NCBI RefSeq assembly: GCF_016125955.1
Contig: NZ_JADEVE010000155.1
Coordinates: 1-60,334 of the forward strand
Length of the DNA stretch: 60,334 nucleotides
DNA from: Acetomicrobium sp. S15 = DSM 107314
Lineage (GTDB): Bacteria; Synergistota; Synergistia; Synergistales; Thermosynergistaceae
Direction: 5' to 3'
The position numbers were made by a program, and so were the translations under genes. The first letter of the stretch is position 1; each line of letters begins with the position of its first letter. Below the pieces are notes generated by a model. That model was not told the DNA's origin. It saw only the letters and a list, made by a program, of their open reading frames with translations, and made no database searches. Positions 1-7,428 of this stretch are shown piece after piece.

Positions 1-71
1 TTTTCAGCAGACTCTTCACATATTACTTCCTACACTCACTCTCACACTCATTTTCACATTTTCCTCTCATC

Positions 72-109
72 ACTGATCACTCATCACTCATTACTGATCA
101 CTCATCACT
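72..109. repeat. Short tandem direct repeat (17 bp, two copies)
   Basis: A 17-bp unit (actgatcactcatcact) occurs at 72-88 and again at 93-109, a 21-bp period, inside a CACT/TCA-rich tract spanning roughly 30-120. No reading frame is evident. It sits downstream of the MNT-type gene. Simple noncoding repeat; function unknown. Confidence 0.7.
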
Positions 110-157
110 TTTCACGCCTCACGGCCTTTCCTCTTGGCTCAGCAATTTATCATCCAT

Positions 158-1341: not shown

Positions 1342-1499
1342 GATTTAAATATGCTTAAGCCCAAAGATAGTGTAAAACATATGTGGTACAATCGATACCA
1401 AAGCTGCTTTAACACATAAAAATGGGGATAGCGCTCGTCGTTGAAGCCGCCCTGCCAGATTCGTAAGCTGCAAAAACGAGTGAAATCAAATGAGACAAG

Positions 1500-1529
1500 A
1501 ACACAAAAAGTAAAGACCCGACCCCAAGG
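1500..1529 (+). repeat. Dispersed repeat, copy A
   Basis: A 30-bp sequence whose core is aaaaagtaaagacccgaccc. It begins immediately after the stop codon of the UDP-glucose dehydrogenase gene (stop at 1530-1532). It matches copy B (3854-3883) at 29 of 30 positions in inverted orientation and copy C (5067-5096) more loosely in the same orientation. Confidence 0.85.
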
Positions 1530-2849
1530 TTATCGGCCGACGCCGAAGCAGGCAAAGCCGCGCTGGCGGAGTTTATGCGGGTCGTACTGGTTTCTGGCAT
1601 CGAAGATGACGGGCCGCGACAAGAGCTCTTTCATGCGGTCGAAGTCCGGCTGCCGAAACATCTTCCATTCGGTGGCAAGAAGGAGCGCGTCGGCGCCGCG
1701 GAGGGCTTCGTAACAATCGTTGAAGTACGTAATGGCATGCTCGCCCAAGACCTTCCTTGCCTGCTCGGTGGCTGCGGGGTCGAAGGCCTGAACGGCGCCG
1801 CCGGCTTCAATGATTCTCTTGGCTATCGCCACGGCGGGCGACTCGCGCACGTCGTCGGTGTCGGGCTTGAAGCTCAATCCCCAAAGCGCTATGCGCACGC
1901 CCTTAAGGTCGCCGTTGAAATAGTCGCGTATTTTTGAAAAGACGTAGTCCCTCTGTGTTTCGTTCACCTCGTCCACGGCCTTTAAGATCGAAAGGTCCAC
2001 TCCGTTTTGTCTTGCCGTGTCGATCAACGCCTTTACGTCCTTGGGGAAACATGACCCTCCGTATCCCGGCCCGGCATATAAGAAGCTCGAGCCGATCCTC
2101 GAGTCCAGGCCAATGCCCTTTCTAACGGCCTCTATGTCAGCCCCGACTCTATCGCACAGCCTTGCAAGCTCATTTATAAAGCTGATGCGCGTGGCCAACA
2201 TGGCGTTAGCGGCGTATTTTATGAGCTCCGCCGTTGGGATCGAGGTGACGAAAAACCTATCCTCTCTCATGGTGAAGGGCGCAAGCAGCTCTTTGAGCAG
2301 CTCTGCAGTCCTGCCATTTTCCGTCCCTATGATGATCCTATCGGGATGCTGAAAGTCCTCGACGGCCGACCCCTCTTTTAAGAATTCGGGGCATGAGGCG
2401 ATGTCGAACTCCACATCCGGGGCGCGTCTTTCTTTGAGTTTCGAAGAGATTATTTCCTTAACCTTGTAAGTCGTCCCTATGGGGACGGTCGACTTAGTGG
2501 CGACTATCTTGTAGTTGTCTATCGCCATACCAATGTTTTCGGCTACGTCGAAGACAGCCGAAAGGTCTGCGCTGCCATCGTGATTTGGAGGGGTCCCTAC
2601 CGCTATGAATACGAATAACCCCCTGGACACGCCCTCGGCTATGTCCGTCGTGAAGCGAAGTCGGCCTCCAGCCAGATTGCGCTTGACTATGTCTTCCAGG
2701 CCAGGTTCGTAGATGGGCACAATGCCCTGATTTAGTTTGCTTATCTTTTCTTCGTCCTTGTCGACGCACCAGACGTCGTTTCCCGTATCTGCAAGGCACG
2801 CCCCTGTAACGAGGCCGACATATCCTGTCCCTATCACGCATACACGCAC
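1530..2849 (-). CDS. ugd: UDP-glucose 6-dehydrogenase
   Basis: A 439-residue member of the UDP-glucose/GDP-mannose dehydrogenase family, which oxidises UDP-glucose to UDP-glucuronate with two NAD+ for surface polysaccharide synthesis. The N-terminal Rossmann motif GTGYVG is at residues 7-12. The catalytic cysteine is Cys267 in GPGYGGSCFPKD, and the C-terminal UDP-binding domain carries GLSFKPDTDDVRESP. Length is normal. The start is GTG and overlaps the TAG stop of the upstream epimerase by one base (TAGTG), so the two are translationally coupled. Its stop codon abuts repeat copy A. The partner epimerase suggests the product is turned into UDP-galacturonate. Confidence 0.95.
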   Translation of the reverse strand: MRVCVIGTGYVGLVTGACLADTGNDVWCVDKDEEKISKLNQGIVPIYEPGLEDIVKRNLAGGRLRFTTDIAEGVSRGLFVFIAVGTPPNHDGSADLSAVFDVAENIGMAIDNYKIVATKSTVPIGTTYKVKEIISSKLKERRAPDVEFDIASCPEFLKEGSAVEDFQHPDRIIIGTENGRTAELLKELLAPFTMREDRFFVTSIPTAELIKYAANAMLATRISFINELARLCDRVGADIEAVRKGIGLDSRIGSSFLYAGPGYGGSCFPKDVKALIDTARQNGVDLSILKAVDEVNETQRDYVFSKIRDYFNGDLKGVRIALWGLSFKPDTDDVRESPAVAIAKRIIEAGGAVQAFDPAATEQARKVLGEHAITYFNDCYEALRGADALLLATEWKMFRQPDFDRMKELLSRPVIFDARNQYDPHKLRQRGFACFGVGR

Positions 2850-4006
2850 TAACGGTCACTCCTTGCGCTTTTTATAAAGGTCATCTTAAACCATTCTACG
2901 AACTTCGCTATGCCTTCCTCGAAAGTCGTAGTGGGTTCGTAACCTAAAAGCCTTCTGGCTTTCCCGATGTCCGCGTAGGTTTGAGGGACGTCTCCCGGCG
3001 GAAGGGGTTTTACGTCGAGGATCGGCCTCACACCAAGGCCTCTCGCCAGAACCTCCACCATCTCCTTCAATGAAACAGTGTGGTGATTGCCCAGGTTTAT
3101 CACTTCGTACATGGAATCGCGATATTCCATCGCTGATATCGTGCCCTTCACGATGTCGGCGATATAGGTGTAGTCGCGCTTCGTCGAGCCGTCGCCGTAA
3201 AAGGGGATGGGCTTCCCTTGGACCATGAGATGGGAGAATTTGCAAATGGCAAGGTCCGGCCTTTGCCCGGGGCCGTAGACCGTGAAATACCTCAGGGCGA
3301 TGAAGCGAATGCCGTATAAATGGCTGTAAACGTGGCCCATAAGTTCGCCTGCGATCTTCGTGCCTGCATAAGGGCTTATGGGCTTTAGCGGCTCGTTCTC
3401 TTTCCAAGGGACGTTCGGGTTTACGCCGTAAACGCTCGACGAGGAGGCGAAGACGAACTGCTTCGTTCCGGTCTTAGCGGCGAGCTCCAACATATTCTGC
3501 GTGCCCAAAACGTTCGTCCTACAATATCCTATCGGATCCATTATCGATGGTCGCACACCGGCCTTAGCAGCCAGGTGTACGAAGACGTCGAATTTCATGT
3601 TCCCAAAAGCGCTAATTAAAGCTTCGTAGTTGCATATGTCAATCTCATATACCTTGAGGGCTGATTTATTAACTTCGGCGCTTCTTTCGAGGGCTACCTT
3701 TGAGCACCCTAATATGCCTTCGATATTGCGCTCCTTCAGCTTCCTCGGATAGAAGGGATCGAAGTTGTCTACGACATGAACCTCGCTTCCCAATTCGATC
3801 AGCGCCCTGGCAAGGTGGCTGCCTATAAAACCAGCCCCACCACTCAAAAGCACCCTTGGGGTCAGGTCTTTACTTTTTGTGTTTTTGGCGGCGTCTTCGC
3901 TGATATTTTCAGCGGCGTTTTCGGTAGCGTTTCGGCTGCTGTTTTCACCGTTGCCGGTTTTATCGTCGAGGTCATTTCCGGTGCGCGATGTCCTTGGCAA
4001 TGACAC
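2849..4006 (-). CDS. NAD-dependent epimerase (UDP-glucuronate 4-epimerase-like) with repeat-derived N-terminal extension
   Basis: A 385-residue extended short-chain dehydrogenase/reductase. The dinucleotide-binding motif GGAGFIG is at residues 56-62 and the catalytic YAGTK lies in the middle of the protein. The sequence resembles UDP-glucuronate/UDP-glucose 4-epimerases, in keeping with the coupled UDP-glucose dehydrogenase downstream. Family members start within a few residues of the Rossmann strand. Here about 50 extra residues precede it: a low-complexity Asn/Ala/Glu segment (20-41), then residues 42-51 encoded exactly by repeat copy B. The GTG start at 4004-4006 has GGGGAG 8 bases upstream, so the extension is probably translated. 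Confidence 0.9.
   Translation of the reverse strand: MSLPRTSRTGNDLDDKTGNGENSSRNATENAAENISEDAAKNTKSKDLTPRVLLSGGAGFIGSHLARALIELGSEVHVVDNFDPFYPRKLKERNIEGILGCSKVALERSAEVNKSALKVYEIDICNYEALISAFGNMKFDVFVHLAAKAGVRPSIMDPIGYCRTNVLGTQNMLELAAKTGTKQFVFASSSSVYGVNPNVPWKENEPLKPISPYAGTKIAGELMGHVYSHLYGIRFIALRYFTVYGPGQRPDLAICKFSHLMVQGKPIPFYGDGSTKRDYTYIADIVKGTISAMEYRDSMYEVINLGNHHTVSLKEMVEVLARGLGVRPILDVKPLPPGDVPQTYADIGKARRLLGYEPTTTFEEGIAKFVEWFKMTFIKSARSDR
3854..3883 (-). repeat. Dispersed repeat, copy B (inside the epimerase gene)
   Basis: Inverted relative to copy A with 29 of 30 identical bases. It is read in frame as residues 42-51 of the epimerase (NTKSKDLTPR), just before the Rossmann fold. Copies A and B therefore form a long-range inverted repeat bracketing ugd and most of the epimerase gene. 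Confidence 0.85.
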
Positions 4007-4047
4007 TGGCTTTTCTCCCCTTTTGCTTTCGGCACTTGAGCCTGTTA

Positions 4048-4076
4048 ATTATACTGTCAACGTAAAGCCTTCTCGA
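4048..4076 (-). promoter_or_regulatory. Probable promoter of the epimerase-ugd operon
   Basis: On the minus strand a perfect TATAAT (4048-4053) lies 17 bp downstream of TCGAGA (4071-4076), which matches the -35 consensus at four of six positions. The start codon is about 40 bp further on, behind GGGGAG. The box spacing supports a vegetative-type promoter. Confidence 0.5.
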
Positions 4077-4083
4077 AGGTCGC

Positions 4084-4099
4084 CTCGGCTCAAGCCGAG
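4084..4099. promoter_or_regulatory. Perfect 16-bp palindromic element upstream of the epimerase promoter
   Basis: The sequence ctcggctcaagccgag has two 7-bp arms with a 2-bp centre. It lies just upstream of the proposed -35 box of the epimerase-ugd operon. It could be an activator or repressor site, but no factor is identified. Confidence 0.3.
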
Positions 4100-4287
4100 T
4101 TCGTGCCGTATTTAAGGCAGTTAAGGTTAGGGCAGTTAAGGGAGATTATGAAAAGCTCGATCGCCCCCCGATAATTTATTAACAATCGCCCGTGAGGCGC
4201 TAATAACAAATTGGAGTCTATCACCTATACGATAAACCCCTGTATCTCATATCCCTTCGTCACTCCAATGCCGTTACTCCGACATTT
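4100..4287. other. Gene-free stretch with an 11-bp direct repeat
   Basis: No credible reading frame. A direct repeat ggcagttaagg occurs at 4116-4126 and 4131-4141 (15-bp period). The remainder is AT-rich and featureless. It lies between the decayed nuclease gene and the epimerase promoter. Confidence 0.5.
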
Positions 4288-4748
4288 TTAATCTAACGTC
4301 CTAAAGACCTCAGACTTGTCTTTTGCATCTAAAATCATGTCCAGCGCAACTTCGAGCTTGGCTTCGTCCGTAACGGAGTGCAATTCCTCTTCCTCTGCGA
4401 GGGTGAGGCCGAACTTGCGCTTGAGCAGTTTTATCAATGTCGAGCGTTTGGCCTCTATTTGCCTATCTCCTTGCCTTTCAATTCGCCTCTCTTTTCCAGC
4501 TTCTCTGCCAAAGACGGCATGACTTCTTCATCTCCCAAACTCTTCGCTATCTCAGACATCGTTTCTTCGGGCACGTCCAGCGCGTGTATCAGGAACTCAA
4601 GTATTATTGTCTTTTCATTGTCTGACGCGATTATTATACTAGCCTTGAGCCTGATCTCTCCTAATTTTTGAAGGGAAGCGCACTTCATGGCCCAAAGGGC
4701 CCCGTACCAGGAAGGGGTCAATGCAAACCTGCAAATTTGGGAAAACAC
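4288..4748 (-). pseudogene. Frameshifted remnant of an Rpn-like (PD-(D/E)XK nuclease/'transposase') protein, C-terminal part
   Basis: One frame from 4748 encodes about 97 residues ending in a charged run around GELKGKEIGK and a stop. A second frame takes over near 4450 and continues with IEAKRSTLIKLLKRKFGL and a Glu-rich helix, ending at the TAA at 4288-4290. The joined product has the layout of the C-terminal end of Rpn-family recombination-promoting nucleases: an ALD/EET region, a charged linker with repeated E-x-G-K, then an LLKRKFG helix and a final helical segment. The N-terminal nuclease domain is absent. It is therefore a truncated, frameshifted relic, next to tRNA-Lys. Family assignment is by resemblance only. 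Confidence 0.55.
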
Positions 4749-4845
4749 AGTAAAAGGAGGGAAGTCCGAAGTTTAGGAAAAGTCGTAGTTTTGGAGGTCA
4801 TCACGGCATAGCAAGAAAACAGTCCGGCGCTCCTAAATCGAGCAT

Positions 4846-4880
4846 AAAAAAATCCCGACAGGCTACAAACCCAGCCGGGA
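4846..4880 (-). terminator. Rho-independent terminator after tRNA-Lys
   Basis: On the minus strand a stem starting TCCCGGCtGG and closing CCtGTCGGGA (4853-4880) is followed directly by a run of seven T (4846-4852). It lies 8 bases beyond the tRNA 3' end. It would also stop any transcript reading through from argH. Confidence 0.8.
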
Positions 4881-4888
4881 ACTAAATT

Positions 4889-4964
4889 TGGTGAGCCGTG
4901 CAGGATTCGAACCTGCGACACCCGGATTAAAAGTCCGGTGCTCTGCCACCTGAGCTAACGGCCC
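4889..4964 (-). tRNA. tRNA-Lys (anticodon TTT)
   Basis: A 76-nt cloverleaf read on the minus strand. The acceptor stem GGGCCGT/ACGGCTC has one G-U pair, the anticodon loop is CTTTTAA with anticodon TTT, the T-arm carries GGTTCGAATCC, and the 3' CCA is encoded. It has its own promoter (5004-5031) and a terminator. Confidence 0.97.
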
Positions 4965-5003
4965 AAAACTCCCTTCTATTTAAGACCCGATCGGCACGTA
5001 TAA

Positions 5004-5031
5004 ATTATCACGCAAGGGTCAAAGATGTCAA
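5004..5031 (-). promoter_or_regulatory. Promoter of tRNA-Lys
   Basis: On the minus strand TTGACA (5026-5031), a 16-bp spacer and GATAAT (5004-5009) match the vegetative consensus at 11 of 12 positions. The tRNA 5' end is about 40 bp downstream. The promoter lies just past the end of argH. Confidence 0.8.
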
Positions 5032-5060
5032 CCTGCCGGCGTTGGTTCCCGAGGCGAGAG

Positions 5061-6506
5061 CTAAGAAACACTAAAAGTAAAGACCTGTCCCAGGAGGGCT
5101 TCAAGAACGCACTCGCGGTAGACTTCGAACTCCGAAAGGGCCTTTTCGAGCCGCCCCTTGCCGGACTTGATCTGCCGTCTCACCTCAGCAAAAGCCGTCC
5201 CCCCAAAGGTGCGGCGTCTCTCCACGGCGGCCTCCGGCACGAGCAAGCCAATCAGGTCGGCCTCGACCTCCGGAATCAGGACTTTCCACTCTTCGACGGA
5301 AAGGGAGTTCAAGGCCCTTCCCCTCTCCAGGCACCACTTGACGGCCTGTCCCACCTTCTGATGCGCCTCCCTGAAAGGTACCCCCTTGGCCACGAGATAC
5401 TCGGCTACGTCCGTCGCCAAAGCGAAACCGTCCCTAAAAGCGTCCAAAGCACGGCGTTCATCCACGTCCACCCGAGAGAGGAGCGGAGGGAGAACGTCCG
5501 TAACGGAGGCGAGCAATTCTAACGACGCCCAGAGGCTGCGCTTGTCCTCCTGCAAATCCCTGTCGTAGGCCATGGGAAGGCCCTTTAAGAGGGTGGCCAT
5601 GCTCACGAAACACCCGATGGCCTGGGATGCCCTGCCGCGCACCAGCTCCAATACGTCGGGATTTTTCTTCTGAGGCATCATGCTGGAGCCCGTGCAAAAT
5701 CCGTCGGGAAGGCGAATCCAGCCGAACTCAGAAGTATTCCATATGATGAGGTCTTCGCAAAGTCGGCTGCAGTGGAGCATAAAAGACACGGCGAAGTGAT
5801 GATAATCGAGCATGTAATCCCTTTGAGATATGGCATCGATGCTGTTCTCCGCGACGCCGGAAAAGCGCAAGATGCTGGCCGCGTAATGCCTGTCGAGCGG
5901 CAGCGTCGAACCGGCCAAAGCCCCCGACCCCAAAGGCGACTCGTCCAGACCTTTGAGGGCGTAAAGCAGAAGGTCGCTATCGCGGAGAAAGGCCCAAAAC
6001 TGCGCCATCCAGTAATGGCCCAGAGAGATGGGCTGAGCCTGTTGCAGGTGAGTGTATCCGGGCACAACCACATCCACGTGGCGCTCGGCGCAGCGGAGCA
6101 AAACCTCGAGCATATGGCAGAGGGAGAGCCCCAATTTGGATAACTCCTCCCGCAGGTACAGGCGCATCGTCGTGGCTATTTGATCGTTGCGGCTCCTTCC
6201 CGTGTGAAGCTTGGCCCCTACACTCCCCAAAAGCTCGATCAACCGCGCTTCGATGTTCATGTGCACGTCTTCGAGTTCGACCTTGGGCACGAACTTGCCG
6301 GACTTGATCTCGTCCGCGATCTGTTTCAAAGCCGACAAAATTGCACCGCACTCCTGAGGGGAAATCAGTTTCACTCGAGAGAGCATCCTCACATGGGCAG
6401 CGCTGCAGATCACGTCAGCCAGAGCCAATCGCCAATCGAGATCTAACGATTGGGTGAAGTCCAAGACTGTTCTTTCGATATCCTCGCTAAACCTGCCCTT
6501 CCACAC
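5061..6506 (-). CDS. argH: Argininosuccinate lyase
   Basis: Cleaves argininosuccinate to arginine and fumarate, the last step of arginine synthesis. Belongs to the fumarase/aspartase superfamily, with the signature GSSMMPQKKNPD, TGRSRND and GYTHLQQAQP visible; length is normal. The chosen start is GTG at 6504-6506: GGAGG (6514-6518) sits 7 bases upstream, whereas a TTG two codons earlier is too close to it. The start lies inside the last codons of the upstream Ppx/GppA gene. The final residues (GQVFTFSVS) and the stop are encoded within or at the edge of repeat copy C, so the native C-terminus seems to have been replaced or extended. It is the last gene of the 50-kb minus-strand run. Confidence 0.96.
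   Translation of the reverse strand: MWKGRFSEDIERTVLDFTQSLDLDWRLALADVICSAAHVRMLSRVKLISPQECGAILSALKQIADEIKSGKFVPKVELEDVHMNIEARLIELLGSVGAKLHTGRSRNDQIATTMRLYLREELSKLGLSLCHMLEVLLRCAERHVDVVVPGYTHLQQAQPISLGHYWMAQFWAFLRDSDLLLYALKGLDESPLGSGALAGSTLPLDRHYAASILRFSGVAENSIDAISQRDYMLDYHHFAVSFMLHCSRLCEDLIIWNTSEFGWIRLPDGFCTGSSMMPQKKNPDVLELVRGRASQAIGCFVSMATLLKGLPMAYDRDLQEDKRSLWASLELLASVTDVLPPLLSRVDVDERRALDAFRDGFALATDVAEYLVAKGVPFREAHQKVGQAVKWCLERGRALNSLSVEEWKVLIPEVEADLIGLLVPEAAVERRRTFGGTAFAEVRRQIKSGKGRLEKALSEFEVYRECVLEALLGQVFTFSVS
5067..5096 (+). repeat. Dispersed repeat, copy C (end of argH)
   Basis: Shares the core aaaagtaaagacc with copies A and B and is the most diverged copy, with about 80% identity by eye over 30 bp. 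It is in the same orientation as copy A and is read on the minus strand as the C-terminal residues of ArgH. Confidence 0.7.
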
Positions 6507-7428
6507 AATCAACCCTCCAGTCGATACCGCTCGCCGCCAACCCTCTCTTGTCTGCCATCTCCACCAGCTCCCCCCAGAGGAGATCGCACTCGCTGTGGGT
6601 ATAGCTATCGATAGCCAAGACGTCGAGTAAAGAAACGATGACGGCCATGCCGGGGATTATTATATCTGCCCTGCCCGGCTCGAGGCCAATTACATTTCGC
6701 CGCTCTTCCGCTGAGAGCTGCGCCGTTTTAGCCAAAAGCCCTTCTATGTCCCCTTTTTTTACGAGGCTTCCGTGGACCCTTCCGGGATGATATTTCTCTA
6801 TGGGGATGGCCTTCAGCATCATGGCGACCGTGGAGGATGTGCCGCCCACACCGACGACCGCCCCTCCGGCAAAAAGGCAGCGGACTTCGGCAAGCCGTTT
6901 GGCCGCCGCACAACCAATCTTTTTAACGTCCTCGCCGTAGAGCGAAGCCATGCGCACCGCCCCTAACGGCAGCGAGAAGAAGCGCTTTCCGTCTCCCACC
7001 TCGAGGCTACCTCCGCCGAGGTCGAAGAAAAGGCCGACCCTTTCGCGCAAGCCGAAGGCGGCACCTCGAAAACTCAAGCTCGCCTCCTCGTAGCCGCTTA
7101 GGACGGAGAGCGGCAACCCGGCGACCCCTTCCAATTCGGCTGCAGCAAAAGAGGCGTTATAAGCGCTGCGAAGCGACTCGGTCGCTATGAAAGACCTGTC
7201 CTCAAGCGACACGCAGTTGGCATCGAGGAGCGTACGAGCCTTGGCCACAGCCGCCTTTGTGCGGCTTAAGGCTTCATCCGATATGGCATATCGACCTTCC
7301 CCAACCCCTTGAGCCAGCCGGCTTATCCAAGCTCCGCTCGCAAGATATACGAAGCGCCCCTCTATACATCCCACCGCGAGGGCGCGGACCGAGTTCGATC
7401 CGACGTCGATGACGCCGAGACGTTTCAT
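6487..7428 (-). CDS. Ppx/GppA family phosphatase
   Basis: A 313-residue protein of the exopolyphosphatase/guanosine pentaphosphate phosphatase family (ASKHA fold). Residues near the N-terminus read GVIDVGSNSVRAL (phosphate-1 loop), followed by a FFDLGGGSLEV phosphate-2 motif and a VGVGGTSST segment. It is about the size of the short, catalytic-domain-only members, so polyphosphate versus pppGpp preference cannot be read. The start is ATG at 7426-7428, with AGGAGG 6 bases upstream. That ribosome site lies inside the DUF501 gene, whose frame continues 155 bases into this one. DUF501 next to Ppx/GppA is a recurring pairing in other phyla. Confidence 0.9.
   Translation of the reverse strand: MKRLGVIDVGSNSVRALAVGCIEGRFVYLASGAWISRLAQGVGEGRYAISDEALSRTKAAVAKARTLLDANCVSLEDRSFIATESLRSAYNASFAAAELEGVAGLPLSVLSGYEEASLSFRGAAFGLRERVGLFFDLGGGSLEVGDGKRFFSLPLGAVRMASLYGEDVKKIGCAAAKRLAEVRCLFAGGAVVGVGGTSSTVAMMLKAIPIEKYHPGRVHGSLVKKGDIEGLLAKTAQLSAEERRNVIGLEPGRADIIIPGMAVIVSLLDVLAIDSYTHSECDLLWGELVEMADKRGLAASGIDWRVDCVEGQV

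Follow-up and report, generated by a model that had tools for sequence, protein, structure and literature searches.

A short repeat at gene borders in Acetomicrobium: probable solitary ends of a TIRtron-type transposon

Introduction

Three copies of a repeat of about 30 bp lie within 3.6 kb of one another at the edges of genes in Acetomicrobium sp. S15 = DSM 107314, in a 60,334-nucleotide stretch of DNA (contig NZ_JADEVE010000155.1) that was analysed as a whole and is called the window here. What is this repeat, and how did its copies come to border genes and even to form parts of proteins? An earlier note, made from the sequence of the window, suspected a palindromic or REP-like mobile unit that inserts at gene ends and adds coding sequence there, and mentioned, without confirming it, a link to RAYT-type transposases.

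Several known systems bear on this question. In the passages of Di Nocera et al. (2013, PMC3733652) drawn on here, TIRtrons are described as Y1 transposase genes lying between terminal inverted repeats (TIRs), many of which carry GGGGWSAS, and moderately abundant families of TIR repeats are described in some species. The same passages state that stop codons can come from REP ends and that REPs occur inside ORFs, N-terminal cases of which may be misannotations. The TIRtron transposases, TIRYTs, probably correspond to TnpA_REP subclass 2.1, which has C-terminal HTH domains, according to the portion of PMC6006769 that treats them. REPs located up to 15 nt from stop codons in E. coli are reported to affect translation (PMC12306157), and the RPEs of Rickettsia are a known precedent for repeats in frame in unrelated proteins (PMC10969869).

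Results

Three copies of one repeat in the window

The copies and their host genes are the following.

1499..1529, + strand: copy A; core 1506-1525 is AAAAGTAAAGACCCGACCCC, followed by AAGG; the GACCCC end points towards the ugd stop
1530..2849, - strand: ugd, UDP-glucose/GDP-mannose dehydrogenase family (ORF; Pfam PF03721/PF00984/PF03720), ending at copy A
2849..4006, - strand: NAD-dependent epimerase/dehydratase gene (ORF and Pfam); copy B falls within the extension formed by codons 1-50
3854..3887, - strand: copy B; core 3858-3877 is the exact consensus; KNTKSKDLTPR in frame within the N-terminal extension of the epimerase
5066..5096, + strand: copy C; core 5073-5092 with 2 mismatches; codes for the ArgH C-terminus QVFTFSVS
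5061..6512, - strand: argH, argininosuccinate lyase (NCBIfam TIGR00838 and alignment), whose tail runs about 21-30 residues past the usual end

Copies A (1500-1529, +) and B (3854-3883, -) are identical at 29 of 30 positions, in a match that extends over 34 nt at 94% identity, and copy C (5066-5091, +) is 92% identical to copy B across 26 nt. Both the resemblance and the three placements given in the earlier note are therefore correct. Copy A is separated from the ugd stop codon by 4 nt (CCTT in the gene sense). The Pfam domain of the sugar-nucleotide epimerase/dehydratase starts at about residue 52, after the 50-residue extension in which copy B is read, and argH reads through copy C to a stop codon within the outer part of that copy. 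With up to 3 mismatches, the 20-nt core AAAAGTAAAGACCTGACCCC matches exactly three sites in the window (A, B and C), and 100 shuffles of the window gave 0 core matches at the same threshold.

Between copies B and C lies a tRNA-Lys gene (TTT; 4889-4964), the only known RNA family near the copies; an additional repeat copy in the sister genome (L125 9578-9597) adjoins the same tRNA-Lys. Positions 4288-4748 (-) hold a decayed gene with similarity to the C-terminal portion of YhgA-like putative transposases (PF04754), which are also present near copies in L092 and L094. At the start of the window (1-125), short TGATCACTCATCACTCATTACTGATC-type repeats are located past the 3' end of a Polbeta/MNT nucleotidyltransferase gene (158-607, -). 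Since contig 36 begins with the same gene end and the same type of repeat, the contig probably breaks at this repeat.

The repeat forms an old family in the genus

The host genome (G000; 2.44 Mb in 438 contigs, 99.9% complete) contains 26 copies of the core with up to 3 mismatches (11 forward, 15 reverse), 23 of them outside the window. The sister species (G001), the one other genome of the genus compared, contains 20 at the same threshold, and the reversed pattern, serving as control, gave 0 matches in both genomes. The repeat is thus not limited to the three sites, and the earlier proposal of a dispersed family holds.

The consensus of 45 copies reads AAAAACACAAAAAGTAAAGACCTGACCCC and then a purine run (RRGG): purines occupy flanking positions 1-4 in 36, 45, 41 and 44 of the 45 copies, position 4 being mostly G. 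Some copies extend upstream with GTTAGGGCAGRCTAAGAAACAC.

Around the copies the two genomes are ~90% identical. About a dozen of the G001 copies align with a copy, sometimes a degenerate one, at the orthologous G000 site, and the N-terminal copies of CoaX and of the exonuclease are also common to both species. The many copies at orthologous sites indicate, on sequence comparison, that the family is old in the genus. At the site of copy A nothing but GCCCCAAGG is retained in the sister species, through either a deletion or the absence of an insertion; this ambiguous site is the sole candidate, and no clean empty site was found within the genus. On contig 36 of the host a GIY-YIG gene appears truncated at a copy.

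Relatives carry a transposase with the same ends

Exact matches to the 15-mer GGGGTCAGGTCTTTA occur in 7 of 188 Synergistota genomes, from three families of the order, which was identified as Synergistales through ArgH matches to named records. In G019, inverted copies of GGGGTCAGGTCTTTA, one end off by one base, flank an intact gene encoding a transposase of 284 aa, which belongs to Y1_Tnp and to the REP-associated tyrosine transposases (NCBIfam NF047646), harbors HYH and Y---NP motifs and shows a below-cut-off match to Sigma70_r4 at residues 242-279. Transposases 62% identical to this protein are found between the same ends in G018 and G026, and G046 and G005 carry a transposase with variant ends. 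The core of the host repeat matches the terminal inverted repeats of these HUH/Y1 proteins of ~285 aa, which belong to two further families within the order. What the families have in common is limited to the ~20-nt core, and the outer part differs. Short IS200-type transposases were also considered as a source and rejected, as all 12 loci checked were without the TIRs.

G018 contains both a transposase-bearing unit and a gene-less unit of 380 bp, at different, unrelated sites. Similarity between the units starts and stops exactly at (TCCTT)GGGGTCAGG and CCTGACCCC, and the flanks outside are unrelated. Such exact common boundaries within unrelated flanks indicate that these units have moved. 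TCCTT stands beside the CCCC end at three sites in G018 and G026.

The mobile origin and the RAYT (Y1/HUH) link put forward in the earlier note are thereby supported, the latter through the GGGGTCAGGTCTTTA ends of the relatives' transposases. The transposase sharing these ends was found in G019, G018 and G026; the two Acetomicrobium assemblies, both fragmented, yielded neither a Y1_Tnp protein nor a homologue of the G019 protein. For this reason present-day mobility in the host genome is doubtful.

Single copies do not form stable hairpins

The palindromic character that the earlier note had supposed did not hold up. Single copies show no stable DNA fold (z between -1.0 and +0.9), nor does the only plausible stem display covariation. 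Without a stable hairpin or covariation, the host copies are solo transposon ends, i.e. terminal inverted repeats, and not REPs. Furthermore, none of the host copies carries a GTAG/CGTC tag, and the 26 copies include no close inverted pair. Pairing of GACCT with AGGTT, as a hairpin or as guide and target, was examined and dismissed: the consensus is complementary, but permuted flanks pair more (P 0.9995), and pair counts were not above those of shuffles.

A REPIN-like relative of the family was observed in another taxonomic family, where contigs 3, 10, 12 and 8 of G031 contain about nine palindromic pairs GGGGTCAGGTCTTGAC...GTCAAGACCTGACCCC, ~41 nt apart, with a strong hairpin (z -9.9).

Copies face gene edges with fixed polarity

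Twelve independent, non-overlapping copies lie at most 25 nt from a plausible gene edge (hand-curated from ORFs), and in 12 of 12 the GACCCC end faces the edge (sign test, 2 x 0.5^12 = 5e-4). Six of the 26 G000 copies are located 2-6 nt past a stop codon (p ~6e-5, for an expectation of 2.7% per copy under random intergenic placement and orientation with the gene models of the window). Together these results substantiate the clustering at gene ends that the earlier note had described from three sites. A general abundance of CCTY after stop codons was also considered; it begins within 0-3 nt of 6 of the 65 stops in the window, which is not enough to account for the copies next to stops. Likewise, a purine-run target does not explain how close these copies are to the stops.

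Towards a gene start, two of the three frames of the repeat contain a stop, and the third reads K-N-T-K-S-K-D-L-T-P. Seven genes have the repeat in this stop-free frame at their start, encoding the epimerase, CoaX, an exonuclease-family protein, two substrate-binding proteins, a glycosyltransferase and a NAGPA-domain protein. Several of the seven have a plausible start codon downstream of the repeat, and there the repeat is probably leader RNA.

Translation of some copies appears obligatory

In the gene of the NAGPA-domain protein (L095/L110), neither species has an ATG, GTG or TTG between the repeat and the hydrophobic core of the signal peptide; export of the protein, as predicted, would therefore require that the repeat be translated. 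At the native start of CoaX the sister has GTG and the host GTT, and an upstream TTG follows AAAGGAG in both; translation of the repeat is likely in CoaX and in the epimerase. At the opposite end of a protein, alignment shows that ArgH of other Synergistales ends ~21-30 residues earlier, and the C-terminus of ArgH here is formed by the repeat, which makes its translation obligatory.

Simple Nei-Gojobori counts over few sites gave a dN/dS of 0.82 for the ArgH tail vs 0.09, and of 0.76 for the epimerase extension vs 0.12 in the core. Both segments are nearly unconstrained and appear to be tolerated additions. The earlier claim that the repeat adds coding sequence therefore stands in part: open frames exist and the addition is demonstrable for a few proteins, and the two tails tested are nearly neutral. 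Frame-preserving indels were discarded as proof that all extensions are translated, as the exonuclease leader differs by 16 nt between the species.

Discussion

The copies are probably solitary TIRs of a small TIRtron-type element that was once mobilised by a TIRYT-class enzyme, a Y1/HUH tyrosine transposase; this enzyme would since have been lost or left unassembled, and the copies would be ageing fossils. A TIRYT-type single-strand transposase probably worked on GGGGTCAGG...CCTGACCCC ends, and short ends that were non-autonomous were spread by it. We infer that these very copies were moved by such an enzyme and that it later disappeared from the genus, unless it merely escaped assembly. Purifying selection would then have removed harmful insertions, leaving ageing copies where harm is least.

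The GACCCC end adjoins a purine run (RRGG), which can serve as the ribosome-binding site at gene starts and, read on the opposite strand at gene ends, is the CCTY directly past the stop codon. Since only one of three frames lacks a stop, copies on the start side would persist either in the 5' leader or, in frame, as an N-terminal tag; those on the end side would lie just past the stop codon or encode the final residues. The insertion target may be the purine run itself, next to the CCCC end, and as CCTY is complementary to a ribosome-binding site, insertions would then be placed directly upstream of such sites. A stronger version, in which the family targets purine runs (CCTY on the cut strand) with fixed polarity at gene edges and its open frame serves as a portable tag, KNTKSKDLTP, some copies of which have been domesticated, for example as the n-region of the signal peptide of the NAGPA-domain protein, seems to us doubtful.

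We weighed three other explanations. The window taken by itself, with just three copies within 3.6 kb, might suggest a chance resemblance, yet this is hardly credible and is refuted by the empty shuffles, by the 23 further copies in the genome and by the occurrence of these ends on transposons in other families. A classical palindromic REP/REPIN family of the GTAG type would agree with a small dispersed repeat near gene ends, with a Y1 transposase bearing the same ends in relatives and with the palindromic pairs of related sequence in G031. It is nevertheless very improbable, being contradicted by single copies that are neither palindromic nor covarying and by host copies that are untagged and never closely paired in inverted orientation.

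Of more weight is the idea that the repeat is a conserved element for regulation or processing (a terminator, a stabiliser of mRNA or a translation-control site) that is selected beside stops and starts and whose mobile past is incidental. Strict polarity, the spacing of 2-6 nt past stops and the retention of many copies in both species all speak for it, as does the report that E. coli REPs lying no more than 15 nt from a stop stall ribosomes (PMC12306157). We nonetheless consider it unlikely, because the copies show neither stable structure nor covariation, transposase genes elsewhere are bounded by the same sequence, copies are found at gene starts, at gene ends and inside proteins, and those that code for protein evolve nearly neutrally.

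The host family is consistent with TIRtron-derived repeats. The motif GGGGTCAG in the host consensus fits the TIRYT motif GGGGWSAS given in the relevant passages of PMC3733652 and PMC6006769. As in TIRtrons, the relatives have a ~285-aa Y1/HUH transposase with Y---NP and a candidate HTH-like C-terminus between TIRs beginning with GGGGTCAG, and single TIR copies form a moderate family. Unlike in TIRtrons, the transposase was not found in the host genus, and the host copies are single and strictly polar at gene edges; Synergistales, moreover, are not among the taxa named in the parts of PMC3733652 and PMC6006769 drawn on here. Because the published families, as those parts present them, sit beside their transposase, we file the host copies as orphan derivatives. 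To TIRtron-derived repeats this family adds its taxon, its orphan state and its strictly polar placement at gene edges.

Other systems resemble it in part. REPs and REPINs (GTAG) are likewise short dispersed repeats near gene ends that are linked to RAYT proteins, whereas the host copies are non-palindromic, untagged and without close inverted pairs. The RPEs of Rickettsia also lie in frame in unrelated proteins, but they are palindromic, ~100-150 bp long and present in many ORFs; the host copies, non-palindromic and ~30 bp long, occur only at protein ends. With MITEs derived from IS200/IS605 the comparison is to the 380-bp gene-less unit of G018, which shares both ends with a Y1-transposase element, while the host copies consist of one end only, without internal sequence.

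These findings extend the TIRYT/TIRtron repeat type to Synergistales and offer orphan repeats that are traceable to a transposase in neighbouring families. They also supply a small set of cases for tracing, from one species to the other, what becomes of transposon ends that lie at a gene border (stop, start or fusion). Annotators should be aware that, in this genus, the repeat is the origin of N-terminal extensions of the KSKDLTP type and of the ArgH tail.

Copies also occur in series. In the host, positions 1-3020 of contig 36 (L091) contain same-oriented copies at 214, 1389, ~2080 (degenerate) and 2999, between small gene modules comprising a GIY-YIG remnant, a HicA/HicB-like pair, a PIN-like pair and an MNT-like remnant. 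Each module has a similar TGATGAGTGA-rich stretch in front, so that together they resemble cassettes that have one border in common. Variant copies (AAAACTAAAGATGTGACCCC), mostly in one orientation, recur every 1-5 kb or more in contig 1 of G009 (1936586-1976506), and similar runs are present in G040 C20, G018 C5 and G026 C1, resembling an array of units that share one end.
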